DNA of 64,000 nt from Fibrobacter succinogenes (lineage in GTDB: Bacteria > Fibrobacterota > Fibrobacteria > Fibrobacterales > Fibrobacteraceae). Position numbers and translations under genes: made by a program. The stretch spans positions 124,001 through 188,000 of the forward strand of contig NZ_CACZDK010000002.1 in NCBI RefSeq assembly GCF_902779965.1. Direction: 5' to 3'. The notes under the pieces are model-generated. The model saw only the letters and a list, made by a program, of their open reading frames with translations, did no database searches and had not been told where the DNA came from. Below, piece after piece: positions 51,200 through 60,972 of this stretch; the stretch's first letter is position 1; the number at the start of each line of letters is the position of its first letter.

Positions 51200-52438
51200 T
51201 TAGTGCAAGTTCCTTTTGGTAATGTTTTGTTCGATAATCTCGATTGTTCTGCTGTGATTACTCAAGGATATATCCGTTTTAATAATTTCGAAAGCCTTGC
51301 AAACCTTGTCAAATAGTTCAAAATATATGTTGTTGACTGTTTTTGCTTTTAAACCAAGTTGTTCTGCAAGAATGCTTAAATCGTCCTTGTTTACTTTTTT
51401 GATTTCACTATGTTTACCGATTTTCATAGAAAGCTTATTTGTTAAATTAGGATAAGCTAATGTACATACGGTGTCATATAAAGGCGTGAGCTTTATGGAA
51501 TTATTCTTGTACATTATGGAATAATTTTTTCCGTGTGCATCGCAGTTCCCGATAATCAAATTAAATAGAACGTATTGCAAGAAGGATTGCATTTCCAAAA
51601 GTGGAATGCTTGTTTTTGCTTTGAGCAAGTTGTATATGTCGGCAATGCTGGGACCGCCGTCATTTTGATATTTATAATCGCTTAGAATGCCAAGTGCCTG
51701 ACATGTATCTTCTTGATGGATTCGGGATACTTTACCATCTTGAAAAAATCGGTCGTAACGTTCAACTAATAGAAATTCAGTGCCGTCTATTTGTCTAAAT
51801 TCTGCATGCGGAACAGGTAAATTAGAATTTTCTGCCAGTTTCATACAGATATATTCATTTGCGGAAAGCGAGGACAGCTCTCCATTGCCGGTCGGCTTAA
51901 TGATGTGTGTGGATGGGGCCCCCTTCCGTGGAAGGTAGAAATTGTCATCTTTGTATAGAAGGGGTAGCTTTTCCTGGGCGCCGGCGAGTGAAAGACGAAG
52001 TTCTTCTTTGACCTTGAGAAGAGGACGGGTGTTTGTGTTCTGTATATAATCTGATATTTTTTGAAGCGGAATTTGCTCGTAGTTATCCGAATTGAATTTG
52101 TAGATGTTTTTTGTCTTGTTCGGTTCGCCTTCGGGTAATATTGAAATCATCCCGGCACATTCGCCTCCGAGTTCGTTTAGCAACTTGAGCGTACTAGTTT
52201 CGGAAATGTGGAGATAGCCAGAAATTCTCCTTTTAACATCGCCTTCGGGCAGTAGCCCCTCAAAAAATGGCAGACATTGTTTTTGCGAATACTCGGCAGG
52301 ACTTAAAGGGAGCGAAAGGGATATCTGAGGCAATTCTGCTTCAAGGTATGAAGCGTCGTAAGAAAAGACGATTCCTTTCTCAGCTGTGGAGGAAAGATAC
52401 CCTGCTAAAGATTCGCCAAAGTAAACAGAGAGTCTCAT
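51200..52438 (-). CDS. hipA: HipA-family kinase toxin
   Basis: This 412-residue Ser/Thr kinase toxin resembles HipA, which phosphorylates glutamyl-tRNA synthetase in E. coli and induces dormancy. It has an N-terminal HipA_1 region with CLPFFEGLLPEGDVKRRIS (55-73). The loop LRLSLAGAQEKLPLL has its serine at 150, the same place as the autophosphorylated Ser150 of E. coli HipA. Lys181 binds ATP, the catalytic loop is IIGNCDAHGKNYS (Asp300), and LYDTVC (Asp322) is the DFG equivalent. All key residues are present, so it should be active. Its ATG overlaps the hipB stop by four bases. Confidence 0.93.
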   Translation of the reverse strand: MRLSVYFGESLAGYLSSTAEKGIVFSYDASYLEAELPQISLSLPLSPAEYSQKQCLPFFEGLLPEGDVKRRISGYLHISETSTLKLLNELGGECAGMISILPEGEPNKTKNIYKFNSDNYEQIPLQKISDYIQNTNTRPLLKVKEELRLSLAGAQEKLPLLYKDDNFYLPRKGAPSTHIIKPTGNGELSSLSANEYICMKLAENSNLPVPHAEFRQIDGTEFLLVERYDRFFQDGKVSRIHQEDTCQALGILSDYKYQNDGGPSIADIYNLLKAKTSIPLLEMQSFLQYVLFNLIIGNCDAHGKNYSIMYKNNSIKLTPLYDTVCTLAYPNLTNKLSMKIGKHSEIKKVNKDDLSILAEQLGLKAKTVNNIYFELFDKVCKAFEIIKTDISLSNHSRTIEIIEQNITKRNLH

Positions 52439-52656
52439 TTGTCAGACCCATTTTCGTTGATGTGAAGCTTTAGCCCGAGCGTTTGCAAAACTTGTAGAAC
52501 TTTACCTAGATGCAAAGATTGTTTACCGTTTTCTAGCTCAGAAAAAAAACGGATTCCAACCCCACAAAATGCAGCACAGTTTGCTTGTGTTAAATTAAGG
52601 CTTTTGCGCCTTTTTTTTATTAAGGATGAAATATCCCCAGTTTTAAATATTTCCAT
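52435..52656 (-). CDS. hipB: HipB-type antitoxin / helix-turn-helix repressor
   Basis: This 73-residue XRE-family DNA-binding protein has a helix-turn-helix at about 12-50 (IKKRRKSLNLTQANCAAFCG, then FFSELENGKQSLHLGK). HipB neutralises HipA and represses the operon by binding palindromes. The promoter upstream has TTGATT and TATATT 17 bases apart with the palindrome TTCCCGTTCGGGAA filling the spacer. The predicted transcription start coincides with the A of this ATG, so the mRNA is probably leaderless; no Shine-Dalgarno is present. Translation is coupled to hipA through ATGA. Confidence 0.92.
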   Translation of the reverse strand: MEIFKTGDISSLIKKRRKSLNLTQANCAAFCGVGIRFFSELENGKQSLHLGKVLQVLQTLGLKLHINENGSDK

Positions 52657-52662
52657 ATCCTA

Positions 52663-52691
52663 AATATAATATTCCCGAACGGGAAAATCAA
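52663..52691 (-). promoter_or_regulatory. hipBA promoter with operator in the spacer
   Basis: On the minus strand TTGATT (52691-52686), a 17-base spacer and TATATT (52668-52663). The spacer contains the palindrome TTCCCG-TT-CGGGAA (52685-52672), so a bound repressor would exclude RNA polymerase. The +1 base falls on 52656. Confidence 0.8.
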
Positions 52692-52718
52692 CGGACGGAT
52701 TTCAGTAAATGACAAAAA

Positions 52719-52736
52719 TATTCCCGAACGGGAATA
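52719..52736. promoter_or_regulatory. Second HipB-type operator upstream of hipBA
   Basis: TATTCCCGAACGGGAATA is a second copy of the palindrome, centred 49 bases upstream of the one in the promoter spacer. The spacing, about five helical turns, suits cooperative or looped binding. Confidence 0.75.
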
Positions 52737-52805
52737 TGCGGTTGGCTAGGTTGGTAAAAAAAACATTAGATATTTTTAGAAATATACAAAAACTAGTGTT
52801 TGTTC

Positions 52806-57380: not shown

Positions 57381-57448
57381 CTTGTTGAGTAATATAGATT
57401 AAAAGGGGTTGCCGGGAGATTGATTCAGGAAAAATGTTAAGAAAGAGG

Positions 57449-57485
57449 TTGACAAAAAGACTGGAGTGGTGTACATTTGTGTACA
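57449..57485 (+). promoter_or_regulatory. Promoter and palindromic operator of rhuM
   Basis: TTGACA (57449-57454), a 17-base spacer and TACATT (57472-57477) predict transcription to start at 57484-57485, at the ATG. An inverted repeat TGTACA-TTTG-TGTACA (57470-57485) covers the -10 element and the start codon and could be an autoregulatory operator. Confidence 0.65.
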
Positions 57486-58477
57486 TGCGCGAGATTTTGC
57501 TTTATAAAACCGATAATGCTGAGGTGAAGGTTGAAATCCTTCTGCAAAACGAGAATCTTTGGCTGACTCAGGCGAAAATGGCGGAGCTGTTTGATGTGCA
57601 AAAAGCCGCCATTTCAAAGCACCTGAAGAACATTTTTGCCGAGGGCGAACTCCAAGAAAATTCAGTTGTTTCCAAAATGGAAACAACTGCCGCCGATGGC
57701 AAAAACTATAATACCAATATCTACAACCTCGATGCCATTATCGCGGTAGGGTATCGCATCAACTCAAAGAAAGCGACGATGTTCCGTATTTGGGCCACGC
57801 AGGTTCTCAAGGAATATATTATCAAGGGGTTCGCCATGAACGACGAACGCCTCAAAAATCCCGTAAATTTCTTCGGCAAGGATTACTTCGAGGAACAGCT
57901 CGAGCGTATTCGCGAAATCCGTGCTAGCGAGCGGCGTTTCTACCAGAAGATTACGGATATCTATGCCCGGTGCAGCGCAGACTACAGCCTGGATAGCCCA
58001 ATTACTAAGGATTTTTTCGCGACGGTCCAGAACAAGTTGCATTATGCAGTCACGCATCAGACTGCGGCAGAAATCATTTATTCAAGGGCCGATAGTAAAA
58101 AACTCAATATGGGGCTTACGACTTGGAAAAACGCCTCCGATGGGGATATCCGTAAGCCGGATGTTTCTGTTGCCAAAAATTACCTTTCCCATGAAGAAAT
58201 TAGGAATCTGAACGAAATTGTTACAATGTACCTGGATTATGCGGAACGTCAGGCGAAGCGTGGACAGGTGATGTACATGAAGGACTGGGTTGAAAAACTG
58301 AACGCATTCCTCCAGTTCAACGAAGAGGATGTTTTACAGGACAAGGGCAAAGTTACCCACGAAATCGCAACGGCGTTTGCCGAGGGCGAATATGATAAGT
58401 TCCGAGTGATTCGCGATGCGACTTATAAGAGCGACTTTGACAAGCTCATGGAAGCTACCGCGAAATATAATGCGTAA
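57485..58477 (+). CDS. RhuM-family (virulence protein) gene
   Basis: This protein has 330 residues from the ATG at 57485. It matches the RhuM pattern: an N-terminal wHTH-like DNA-binding segment (NLWLTQAKMAELFDVQKAAI, then SKHLKNIF) and YNLDAIIAVGYRINSKKAT. A central FRIWATQVLKEYIIKGFAMNDERL and a C-terminal Bro/KilA-like helical part follow. Such genes are mobile, occur in islands, and their function is unclear. The earlier open reading to 57434 lies upstream of the promoter, so it is not used. It is inserted in opposite orientation between the wzm and wzt parts of the export operon. Confidence 0.85.
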   Translation: MREILLYKTDNAEVKVEILLQNENLWLTQAKMAELFDVQKAAISKHLKNIFAEGELQENSVVSKMETTAADGKNYNTNIYNLDAIIAVGYRINSKKATMFRIWATQVLKEYIIKGFAMNDERLKNPVNFFGKDYFEEQLERIREIRASERRFYQKITDIYARCSADYSLDSPITKDFFATVQNKLHYAVTHQTAAEIIYSRADSKKLNMGLTTWKNASDGDIRKPDVSVAKNYLSHEEIRNLNEIVTMYLDYAERQAKRGQVMYMKDWVEKLNAFLQFNEEDVLQDKGKVTHEIATAFAEGEYDKFRVIRDATYKSDFDKLMEATAKYNA

Positions 58478-58491
58478 AATTGTGTTGCTCT

Positions 58492-59343
58492 TTACACCGT
58501 GTCCATGAAGGTTCGTTGTATCTTGTTGAAAATGATAATTCCGAGCGCTAGGATAAATACTGCGAAACCAGCGGTGTAGCCGAGTGCGGCCCAGCTGAAT
58601 TCTCCGACGCCGAGCATTCCGAATTTGAAGGTCTCAATAATGCTTGTGAGCGGATTTGCCTGCATGAGCGTTTTGAGGCGTGGGTCTTCGATGGTGCTGA
58701 GCGGGTAAATCACGGGTGTTGCGTACATCCAGAGTTGAACGATAAAGCTGAGCAAAAAGGTGAGGTCGCGATACTTTGTTGTAAGGCTGCTGAACAGTAC
58801 TCCGAATCCGAGGGCTAGTGCGGCTATTAGCGCGATGAGTACGGGGGTGAGCAGTAGGTAAATATTGGGGTGAATCGGCGCTTCGGTAAAGATAAGGTAA
58901 TAAGCGAAGACGATAAAGAATAATCCCATCTGGATGCTGAGTCGGACGAGGTTGCTCGTGACTGTTGCGAGCGGCACGACGAGGCGCGGAAAATACACTT
59001 TGCCGAACATGTTCGCGTTTTCGATGAATGTCTTGCTTGTTTGATTCAGACATTCCGAAAAGTATGTCCAAAGGCAGATGCCGGCGAGGTAAAAGAGCGG
59101 TTGCGGGAGCCCGTCGGTGCTGATTTTGGCGATTCCGCCGAACACGACCATGAACATGATGGTGGTCATGATTGGCTGGATAAAGAACCACAGCGGTCCG
59201 AGAATGGTTTGCTTGTACCAGGTTACGATATCGCGCTTTACAAACATGCGGTAAAGATCGCGGTACTGCCAAAGCTCTCTGAAGTCAATCGAGAGCAGGC
59301 TGGTCTTGGGCTTGATGATGGTTGTCCATTCGCTTGACTGCAT
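58492..59343 (-). CDS. wzm: ABC transporter permease for polysaccharide export (Wzm-like)
   Basis: This 283-residue ABC-2-type permease has six helices, starting after the amphipathic RDLYRMFVKRDIVTWYKQTI and LGPLWFFIQPI signature of polysaccharide exporters. With the Wzt ATPase it forms the channel that moves lipid-linked glycan across the inner membrane. AGGA precedes the start. It is the first gene of the minus-strand polysaccharide block, separated from wzt by rhuM and the acyltransferase. Its upstream region carries a pair of HipB-type palindromes. Confidence 0.92.
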   Translation of the reverse strand: MQSSEWTTIIKPKTSLLSIDFRELWQYRDLYRMFVKRDIVTWYKQTILGPLWFFIQPIMTTIMFMVVFGGIAKISTDGLPQPLFYLAGICLWTYFSECLNQTSKTFIENANMFGKVYFPRLVVPLATVTSNLVRLSIQMGLFFIVFAYYLIFTEAPIHPNIYLLLTPVLIALIAALALGFGVLFSSLTTKYRDLTFLLSFIVQLWMYATPVIYPLSTIEDPRLKTLMQANPLTSIIETFKFGMLGVGEFSWAALGYTAGFAVFILALGIIIFNKIQRTFMDTV

Positions 59344-59390
59344 GGTGCTTCCTGTATAGTCGATTCTTCGAATTCTTGAATTAAATGTAA

Positions 59391-59514
59391 TATTCTTGAA
59401 CGGGTAGGGGGTATGAATTTACGCTGTTTTTATGTTTTATAAGGTTGATATTCCCGAACGGGAATATCCGCTTGTTTTACGGCTGGTAATAATTGAAATA
59501 TTCCCGAACGGGAA
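59391..59514. promoter_or_regulatory. HipB-type operator cluster upstream of wzm
   Basis: TATTCCCGAACGGGAATA at 59449-59466 is base-for-base the hipBA operator. A second TATTCCCGAACGGGAAT at 59499-59515 is centred 50 bases away, as in the hipBA pair (49 bases). A decayed relative, TTCTTGAACGGGTA, lies at 59393-59406. On the minus strand TTCCCG of the 59451 site is 17 bases before TATAAA, a possible promoter for wzm overlapped by the palindrome. Confidence 0.7.
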
Positions 59515-59644: not shown

Positions 59645-59968
59645 ATGGATATTCTTTTTGAAGATAAGGACTTGCTGAAATGCGCTACTGATAGGGCGTA
59701 TGCACTCAAAAGGCTTGGACAGCGTCGTGCACAACGTTATGTTGACCGCTTGGCTCAAATTAGTGAAGCTGCCAATTTTGAAGCCCTGCGGAGATTGCCT
59801 GGACATTATCACGATTTGGTTGGCGATCGCGCGGGGCAGTGGGCTTGCGATTTGGATCAACCGTATAGGTTGATTTTCAAGAGTACAAATGAGAGGCCGG
59901 TTGCGCAAATTGTGTGGGCTAATGAACGCATTGCAAAAATGCTTGAAATTGTAAATTATCATGGATAG
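59645..59968 (+). CDS. higB: HigB/RelE-type toxin
   Basis: This 107-residue ribosome-dependent mRNA interferase of the plasmid-maintenance killer type has the characteristic GHYHDLVGDRAGQWACDLDQ followed by PYRLIF. The N-terminal helices (AQRYVDRLAQI) and the final helix are as in the family. Toxin precedes antitoxin, the order typical of higBA. It starts after its own promoter and is followed by the antitoxin gene after eight bases. Confidence 0.9.
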   Translation: MDILFEDKDLLKCATDRAYALKRLGQRRAQRYVDRLAQISEAANFEALRRLPGHYHDLVGDRAGQWACDLDQPYRLIFKSTNERPVAQIVWANERIAKMLEIVNYHG

Positions 59969-59976
59969 GCCGAAAT

Positions 59977-60972
59977 ATGAACGAAAAAAAGATTGAATTG
60001 TGGCATGTTCCTTCACCTGGAATGGAATTGGCTGAAAAGCTTGAAGAAATGGGCCTCGATGCCAACGATCTCGCGGCACGCATGGGTTATACGCCCAAGG
60101 CGGTGAACGATATTTTGCAGGCTAATTGCCGTATAACGCCGGATTCGGCTATTGCGTTGGAAATGGTTACGGAAATACCTGCTATTTACTGGTTGCGTCG
60201 CCAAATGTCGTATGATGAATTTATTTCGCGCGAACGTATCAAGGCTTCGCTTTCGGATCAATCACTTTGGAAAAAGTCTTTCCCTTCGGAAGTTGTCGTA
60301 CGCGAATGGGTGCTGTATGACAAGGGTGACGAAAAATCCTTGATACCTCTCCTCAAATTTTTTGCGGTGGCTTCTCCGCAGGCTTGGGACCGCTATTACA
60401 AAGATGCCCGTCTTAAGGTGGCGTTCCGTATTTCTCTTGCCGAGGTTAAAGATCCGTATGCGGCATCTGCGTGGATTCGTCGTGGCGAAATTCTTGCGGA
60501 TCGTGACCCGATGGAAAAACAGGAGCAGATTCCTGTTCGCAAGCGCTTGAAGGCGGCGCTCCCTGAAATTATCGCATTCGCAGCTGCCAACAAGGCTTTG
60601 CCGAAGCGAGCCAAGAAAATTACTTACACGACTCCTGAGGCCGATGTTGTTGACGATTGCATGACGGGCTTGCAGGAACTTTGCCGCAAAATTGGGATAC
60701 GCGTTTTGTTCGTGCAAAATTTCAAGTGCGCACCGATTCACGGGATGTATCGTTGGTACAAGGATGTTCCGCTAATCCAGTTGCATGACCGTTTTGAAAA
60801 ACGTGCGACGATGTGGTTTACTTTCTTCCATGAGTTGGCGCATGTGCTGTATCACGGCAAAAAAGGAATTTGTTTACAGAATATCGAAATTACGCACAAT
60901 CATCCTGAAAAAGAAGATGAGGCGAACTGCTTCGCGCAAAAGTGCATGCTCGAAGCGGGTTTCGAGGTGTAG
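59977..60972 (+). CDS. HigA-type antitoxin fused to an ImmA/IrrE-like metalloprotease domain
   Basis: This 331-residue protein has an N-terminal helix-turn-helix (about 18-62, LAARMGYTPKAVNDILQ) like HigA antitoxins. A linker follows, then a C-terminal zinc-peptidase domain with HELAH (His285, Glu286, His289) and a downstream EDEANCFA providing the third metal ligand. Stand-alone HigA is about 100 residues. The fused ImmA-type domain could cleave a repressor or the protein itself under stress. It pairs with HigB, the order and spacing indicating one operon. Confidence 0.88.
   Translation: MNEKKIELWHVPSPGMELAEKLEEMGLDANDLAARMGYTPKAVNDILQANCRITPDSAIALEMVTEIPAIYWLRRQMSYDEFISRERIKASLSDQSLWKKSFPSEVVVREWVLYDKGDEKSLIPLLKFFAVASPQAWDRYYKDARLKVAFRISLAEVKDPYAASAWIRRGEILADRDPMEKQEQIPVRKRLKAALPEIIAFAAANKALPKRAKKITYTTPEADVVDDCMTGLQELCRKIGIRVLFVQNFKCAPIHGMYRWYKDVPLIQLHDRFEKRATMWFTFFHELAHVLYHGKKGICLQNIEITHNHPEKEDEANCFAQKCMLEAGFEV

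Follow-up and report, generated by a model that had tools for sequence, protein, structure and literature searches.

The hipBA locus and its promoter region

The window, a stretch of 64,000 nucleotides from Fibrobacter succinogenes, carries a hipBA toxin-antitoxin (TA) module on its minus strand. The toxin gene, hipA, encodes a full-length kinase with both the HipA_C and the Couple_hipA domain, which matches E. coli HipA with an E-value of 2.5e-42, the serine of the SLAGAQEK loop, the catalytic Asp motif and the LYD motif all being aligned; the closest named HipA, at 80% identity, is from the cultured F. intestinalis ATCC 43854 (L001), which also carries this hipBA. Directly upstream lies the small antitoxin gene hipB, whose product has a helix-turn-helix (HTH) domain and includes Legionella and Shewanella HipB among its PDB matches. 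The hipA ATG overlaps the hipB stop codon (ATGA), and translation of HipA is probably coupled to that of HipB through this overlap. Neighbouring genes on the same strand are polysaccharide genes, encoding a pyruvyl transferase, a radical SAM protein, Wzt, an acyltransferase and a glycosyl transferase. The features of the module and its promoter region are as follows.

51200..52438, minus strand: hipA, toxin kinase, 412 aa (HipA_C, E 2.6e-49; Couple_hipA, E 1.1e-23)
52435..52656, minus strand: hipB, antitoxin, 73 aa, HTH (HTH_3 above the cut-off, MqsA and HTH_37 just below)
52656-52654, minus strand: hipB ATG, with the predicted +1 on the A at 52656
52662-52657, minus strand: discriminator TAGGAT, 6 nt between -10 element and ATG, lacking a functional Shine-Dalgarno sequence (SD)
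52668-52663, minus strand: -10 element TATATT, next base T, exact in 13 of 15 loci and equal to the genome-wide class consensus
52685-52669, minus strand: -35/-10 spacer, 17 bp, TTCCCGTTCGGGAATAT
52672..52685: proximal operator O1, perfect 14-bp palindrome TTCCCGTTCGGGAA, filling the spacer, its CCCGNNCGGG core in this place in all 15 loci
52691-52686, minus strand: -35 element TTGATT
52718..52737: distal operator O2, perfect 20-bp palindrome ATATTCCCGTTCGGGAATAT, 49 bp (4.7 helical turns) from O1

Operator, promoter and start are packed in 36 bp. The first-pass annotation had described TTGATT and TATATT as 17 bases apart with the whole palindrome between them, and had counted seven bases past the -10 element to the A of the hipB ATG; both descriptions proved correct on the minus strand. 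Its statement that hipB lacks an SD holds in the sense that none is correctly placed, but an AGGA tetramer is present (52661-52658), which ends 1 base from the ATG, is too close to it for an SD role and is not kept among orthologs, several of which have TGAAAC instead. The sequence upstream of the hipB start has the layout expected of a leaderless gene, with TATATT at -12 to -7 and only this misplaced, unconserved tetramer. A downstream translation start, named in the same annotation as an observation that would speak against a leaderless mRNA, was looked for: an in-frame TAG lies two codons upstream of the hipB ATG, no in-frame ATG, GTG or TTG occurs within the 24 codons after it, and the hipB ATG is the sole usable start at the locus. 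Taken alone, the consensus -35/-10 match is at the level expected by chance (3 such sites within 2 kb, against 5.1 expected), and it rises above chance because of its conservation over 15 loci and the positional peak found genome-wide.

Conservation and the genome-wide leaderless signature

Using HipA and the operator as queries, we obtained 15 distinct Fibrobacter hipB loci; L002 and L003 agree with the contigs of G055 and G018 in length and position and were counted only once with them. The CCCGNNCGGG operator core stands directly before the -10 element in all 15, and this element is TATATT in 13, with TATGTT and TGTATT in the other two. The position of the -10 element relative to the ATG, whose conservation among orthologs marks leaderless genes, is kept at 6-7 nt in 15/15 loci, the gap being 6 nt in 11 and 7 nt in four; in the latter, a 1-nt leader could be present. 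The last base before the ATG is a pyrimidine in every locus. The discriminators themselves vary (TAGGAT, TAGGGC, TGAAAC, TAGAGC, TAAGAC, TATAAT, TGCTGGT and others), which means that no SD is kept. The -35 element is TTGATT or TTGATA in 11/15 loci, with the variants TTATTT, TTGGTT, TAGATT and TCAATA. The predicted palindromic operator sites are conserved over the 15 loci, a second copy lies 49-50 bp upstream in nearly all of them and one genome (G005) has three operators. The stretch between O1 and O2 diverges, as does the discriminator, and no conserved -10-like element was found between the two operators among these loci.

In bacteria, leaderless genes are marked by a TANNNT element about 12 bp ahead of the start codon, according to a study (PMC3160421) whose text does not contain the word Fibrobacter. 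We analysed 464 kb of the present genome (G000) and 400 kb of a relative (G046), with gene starts from a simple codon-usage caller, counting ATG starts with an upstream gap of at least 50 nt. TANNNT peaks sharply at -13/-12 before the ATG in both G000 (46 versus 14.1 expected, P 1.4e-11) and G046 (34 versus 11.1 expected, P 2.5e-8), and is rare at this position in operon-internal genes (2/41 and 0/60, respectively). These two peak distances are the two seen among the hipB loci. Exact TATATT peaks likewise at the same distances, while TATAAT has no peak. Across 59 ortholog pairs between G000 and G046, the signal was kept in 13 of the 16 with it in G000 and occurred in 3 of the 43 without it, a contrast inflated by closely related upstream DNA. 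A pyrimidine at -1 is enriched in the TANNNT class (38/46 versus 99/159 in G000; 28/34 versus 62/128 in G046), which fits transcription initiating at the A of the ATG. Genes carrying the signal are of many kinds and, as excess over chance in G000, make up about 15% of genes with an upstream gap; roughly 30% of the boxes at -13/-12 (14/46) are expected by chance, so the peak alone proves no single gene leaderless.

Two further properties were considered as evidence for the class and set aside. SD scarcity was dropped, as TANNNT at nearby control offsets is equally SD-poor and the effect is partly mechanical, and -35 enrichment was too weak, with TTG plus a 17-bp spacer in 4/46 and 3/34 genes. 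As a separate observation, the genus seems to use TATATT(T) and not TATAAT as its -10 element, with a partial similarity to TAnnTTTG of the Bacteroidetes (G000 L017-L036, G046 L066-L085); TAnnTTTG is doubtful as the sole class consensus, its final G being found in only some genes. A search for 16S rRNA, from which the anti-SD would be read, found none in this assembly.

Other antitoxins of the genus were also surveyed. Most of the 30 PhdYeFM antitoxin loci examined have an SD at the right distance and several have TATATT about 25-40 nt upstream, a placement in SD-led genes implying that the element acts as a promoter element and not as a ribosome signal. Most of the other hipB families examined likewise have SDs, e.g. 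AGGAGG; in one case (L118), a leaderless start is also possible, five codons before the SD-led one. Leaderlessness as a general property of antitoxins was rejected on these two groups, and the trait accordingly belongs to this hipBA clade and not to antitoxins as such.

Predicted transcription start and alternative readings

Taken together, we consider it likely that this is an autorepressed hipBA operon with a promoter that fires at, or within one base of, the hipB start and yields a leaderless mRNA. Judged from the sequence, hipB very probably belongs to the leaderless genes, which make up roughly 15% of first genes. The simplest reason for such a start would be that the genus uses leaderless promoters for about one in seven first genes, together with the packing of operator, promoter and start into 36 bp. 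The leaderless transcript proposed in the first-pass annotation is, as a prediction, backed by the 15-locus conservation and the genome-wide TANNNT peak, and its proposal that the operator occludes the promoter spacer agrees with the position of the palindrome. In the mechanism we envisage, transcription from the TTGATT-17-TATATT promoter would begin on the hipB ATG or no more than a base away from it. HipB dimers, together with HipA, would occupy O1, cover the spacer and so keep RNA polymerase off the promoter; O2, which lies a further 49 bp upstream, may add cooperativity. Once repression lifts, the mRNA would begin with AUG and be translated via direct recognition of this 5' AUG, and hipA would follow by termination-reinitiation at the ATGA overlap.

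More broadly, it is probable, though less firmly so, that leaderless genes form a large class across the genus (about 15% of first genes, with the -10 element TATATT and not TATAAT) and that hipBA occurs in both forms, one clade being leaderless with the operator in the spacer and others SD-led. If this is true, the two forms are a natural pair for testing how a leaderless start affects a TA switch, with the SD-led hipBA paralogs as an internal control on leaderless antitoxin mRNAs under stress. It would also extend leaderless TA operons to hipBA and to Fibrobacter, and leaderless genes should be taken into account when start codons are annotated in Fibrobacter. No report of leaderless hipBA, or of a leaderless class in Fibrobacter, was found in the open-licence literature, judged by titles and abstracts.

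Two other readings place the transcription start elsewhere. A second promoter further upstream could give hipB an ordinary leader, with the TATATT before the ATG secondary or inactive, and the DNA upstream of O2 is indeed AT-rich; however, the interval between O2 and O1 holds no conserved -10-like element, a leader containing both operators would hold hairpins and still be without an SD, and the fixed spacing between -10 element and ATG would be needless, which makes this reading quite unlikely. Very unlikely, in our estimate, is that TATATTT, instead of being a -10 element, serves translation as an S1-type or Kozak-like signal of the kind seen in Bacteroidetes. Bacteroidetes do initiate largely without SDs, and either S1 binding or a low degree of structure has been invoked to explain their AT-rich upstream signals (PMC3160421, PMC5397173), but the Fibrobacteria, the class of the host, keep SD usage (37% of genes, PMC10783764). 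Moreover, the element has a sharply defined position at -13/-12, while SD-led genes have it about 25-40 nt upstream, and at hipB it lies 17 bp from TTGATT with the operator between.

A separate matter, compatible with the leaderless, autorepressed operon, is why such a start would be kept. The first-pass annotation had suggested that a distinct initiation route could sustain antitoxin production while stress impairs normal initiation. In M. tuberculosis, TA modules are enriched in leaderless mRNAs, such mRNAs increase during starvation (PMC3898074), and translation of a leaderless reporter is reported to be well sustained under stress (PMC8485053). We nevertheless regard selection for such a role as unlikely, and the idea found no support here: the leaderless class is broad and covers many gene kinds, most other antitoxins examined in the genus are SD-led, and the toxin is probably coupled to the antitoxin through the ATGA overlap. 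The codon content of hipB argues in the same direction, with four glutamate codons (at 2, 40, 42 and 68). The best-known HipA target, in E. coli, is GltX, and a block of GltX stops elongation at glutamate codons. If the Fibrobacter HipA shares this target, HipB would not escape the block, and another initiation route would not spare it.

Known systems and further operators and modules

The module resembles E. coli K-12 hipBA in gene order, in its HTH antitoxin and in the full-length HipA kinase with catalytic motifs, and also in having several palindromic operators, through which HipB represses the operon in E. coli (PMC3376134) and would do so in Fibrobacter. It differs in the operator sequence (TATCCN8GGATA in E. 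coli versus TTCCCGNNCGGGAA), in operator number (four versus two or three) and in HipB length (88 versus 73 aa); the predicted leaderless start may be a further difference. With the TA modules of M. tuberculosis, leaderless in 32 of 37 mapped pairs (PMC3898074), it would share transcription of a TA operon from the first start codon, although the phylum is different and the Fibrobacter case belongs to the hipBA family. A general bias of TA modules towards leaderless transcripts is seen in M. tuberculosis, whereas none was seen in Fibrobacter, where most other antitoxins examined are leadered. Also among the closest known systems are lambda cI and PaaR2, autoregulators with a transcription start at the start codon; for PaaR2 of the paaR2-paaA2-parE2 operon (E. 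coli O157), this was established by 5' RACE and expression (PMC8630535). PaaR2 is a separate third regulator in its TA operon, whereas in Fibrobacter hipBA the first gene is the antitoxin itself.

Elsewhere in the window, two perfect copies of the hipB operator (59451-59464 and 59501-59514) precede an ABC-2 permease gene (wzm, 58492-59343, minus strand), together with a degenerate third operator joined to a TACATT box at 59382-59407, identical to hipB O1 plus -10 at 21 of 26 positions (best of 20 shuffles, 18). Going by these sites, HipB may also repress a polysaccharide export gene, or the operators may be a relic of a lost hipBA. A conserved regulon was rejected, since no such operators precede any of the 29 further wzm orthologs examined across the genus. 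In several Fibrobacter genomes, wzm has a hipA gene beside it or close by, and these hipA genes seem to come from different families (for example G010:C1:165935-167555, G021:C30:19152-21994, G077:C1:528206-530692, G038:C1:7118-8779 and G011:C19:58255-59710), which suggests that the wzm vicinity is a recurrent site for hipBA modules.

On the plus strand, two genes at 59645-60972 form a candidate second TA pair. The first, preceded by an SD-like GAGG, encodes a 107-aa protein that looks HigB-like on inspection and has no match in Pfam; the product of the second has 331 aa and an IrrE-like peptidase domain (M78). A RhuM-family gene (57434-58477, plus strand; PF13310, E 1.4e-110) runs against the polysaccharide genes and has an internal ATG at about 57485 with a TANNNT box at leaderless distance. 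In another genome (L055, G043:C1, near 1501, minus strand), a single hipB-type operator with TTCCCGTTCGGGAATATTGCATTTTGAACATG shows the hipB layout before a different start.
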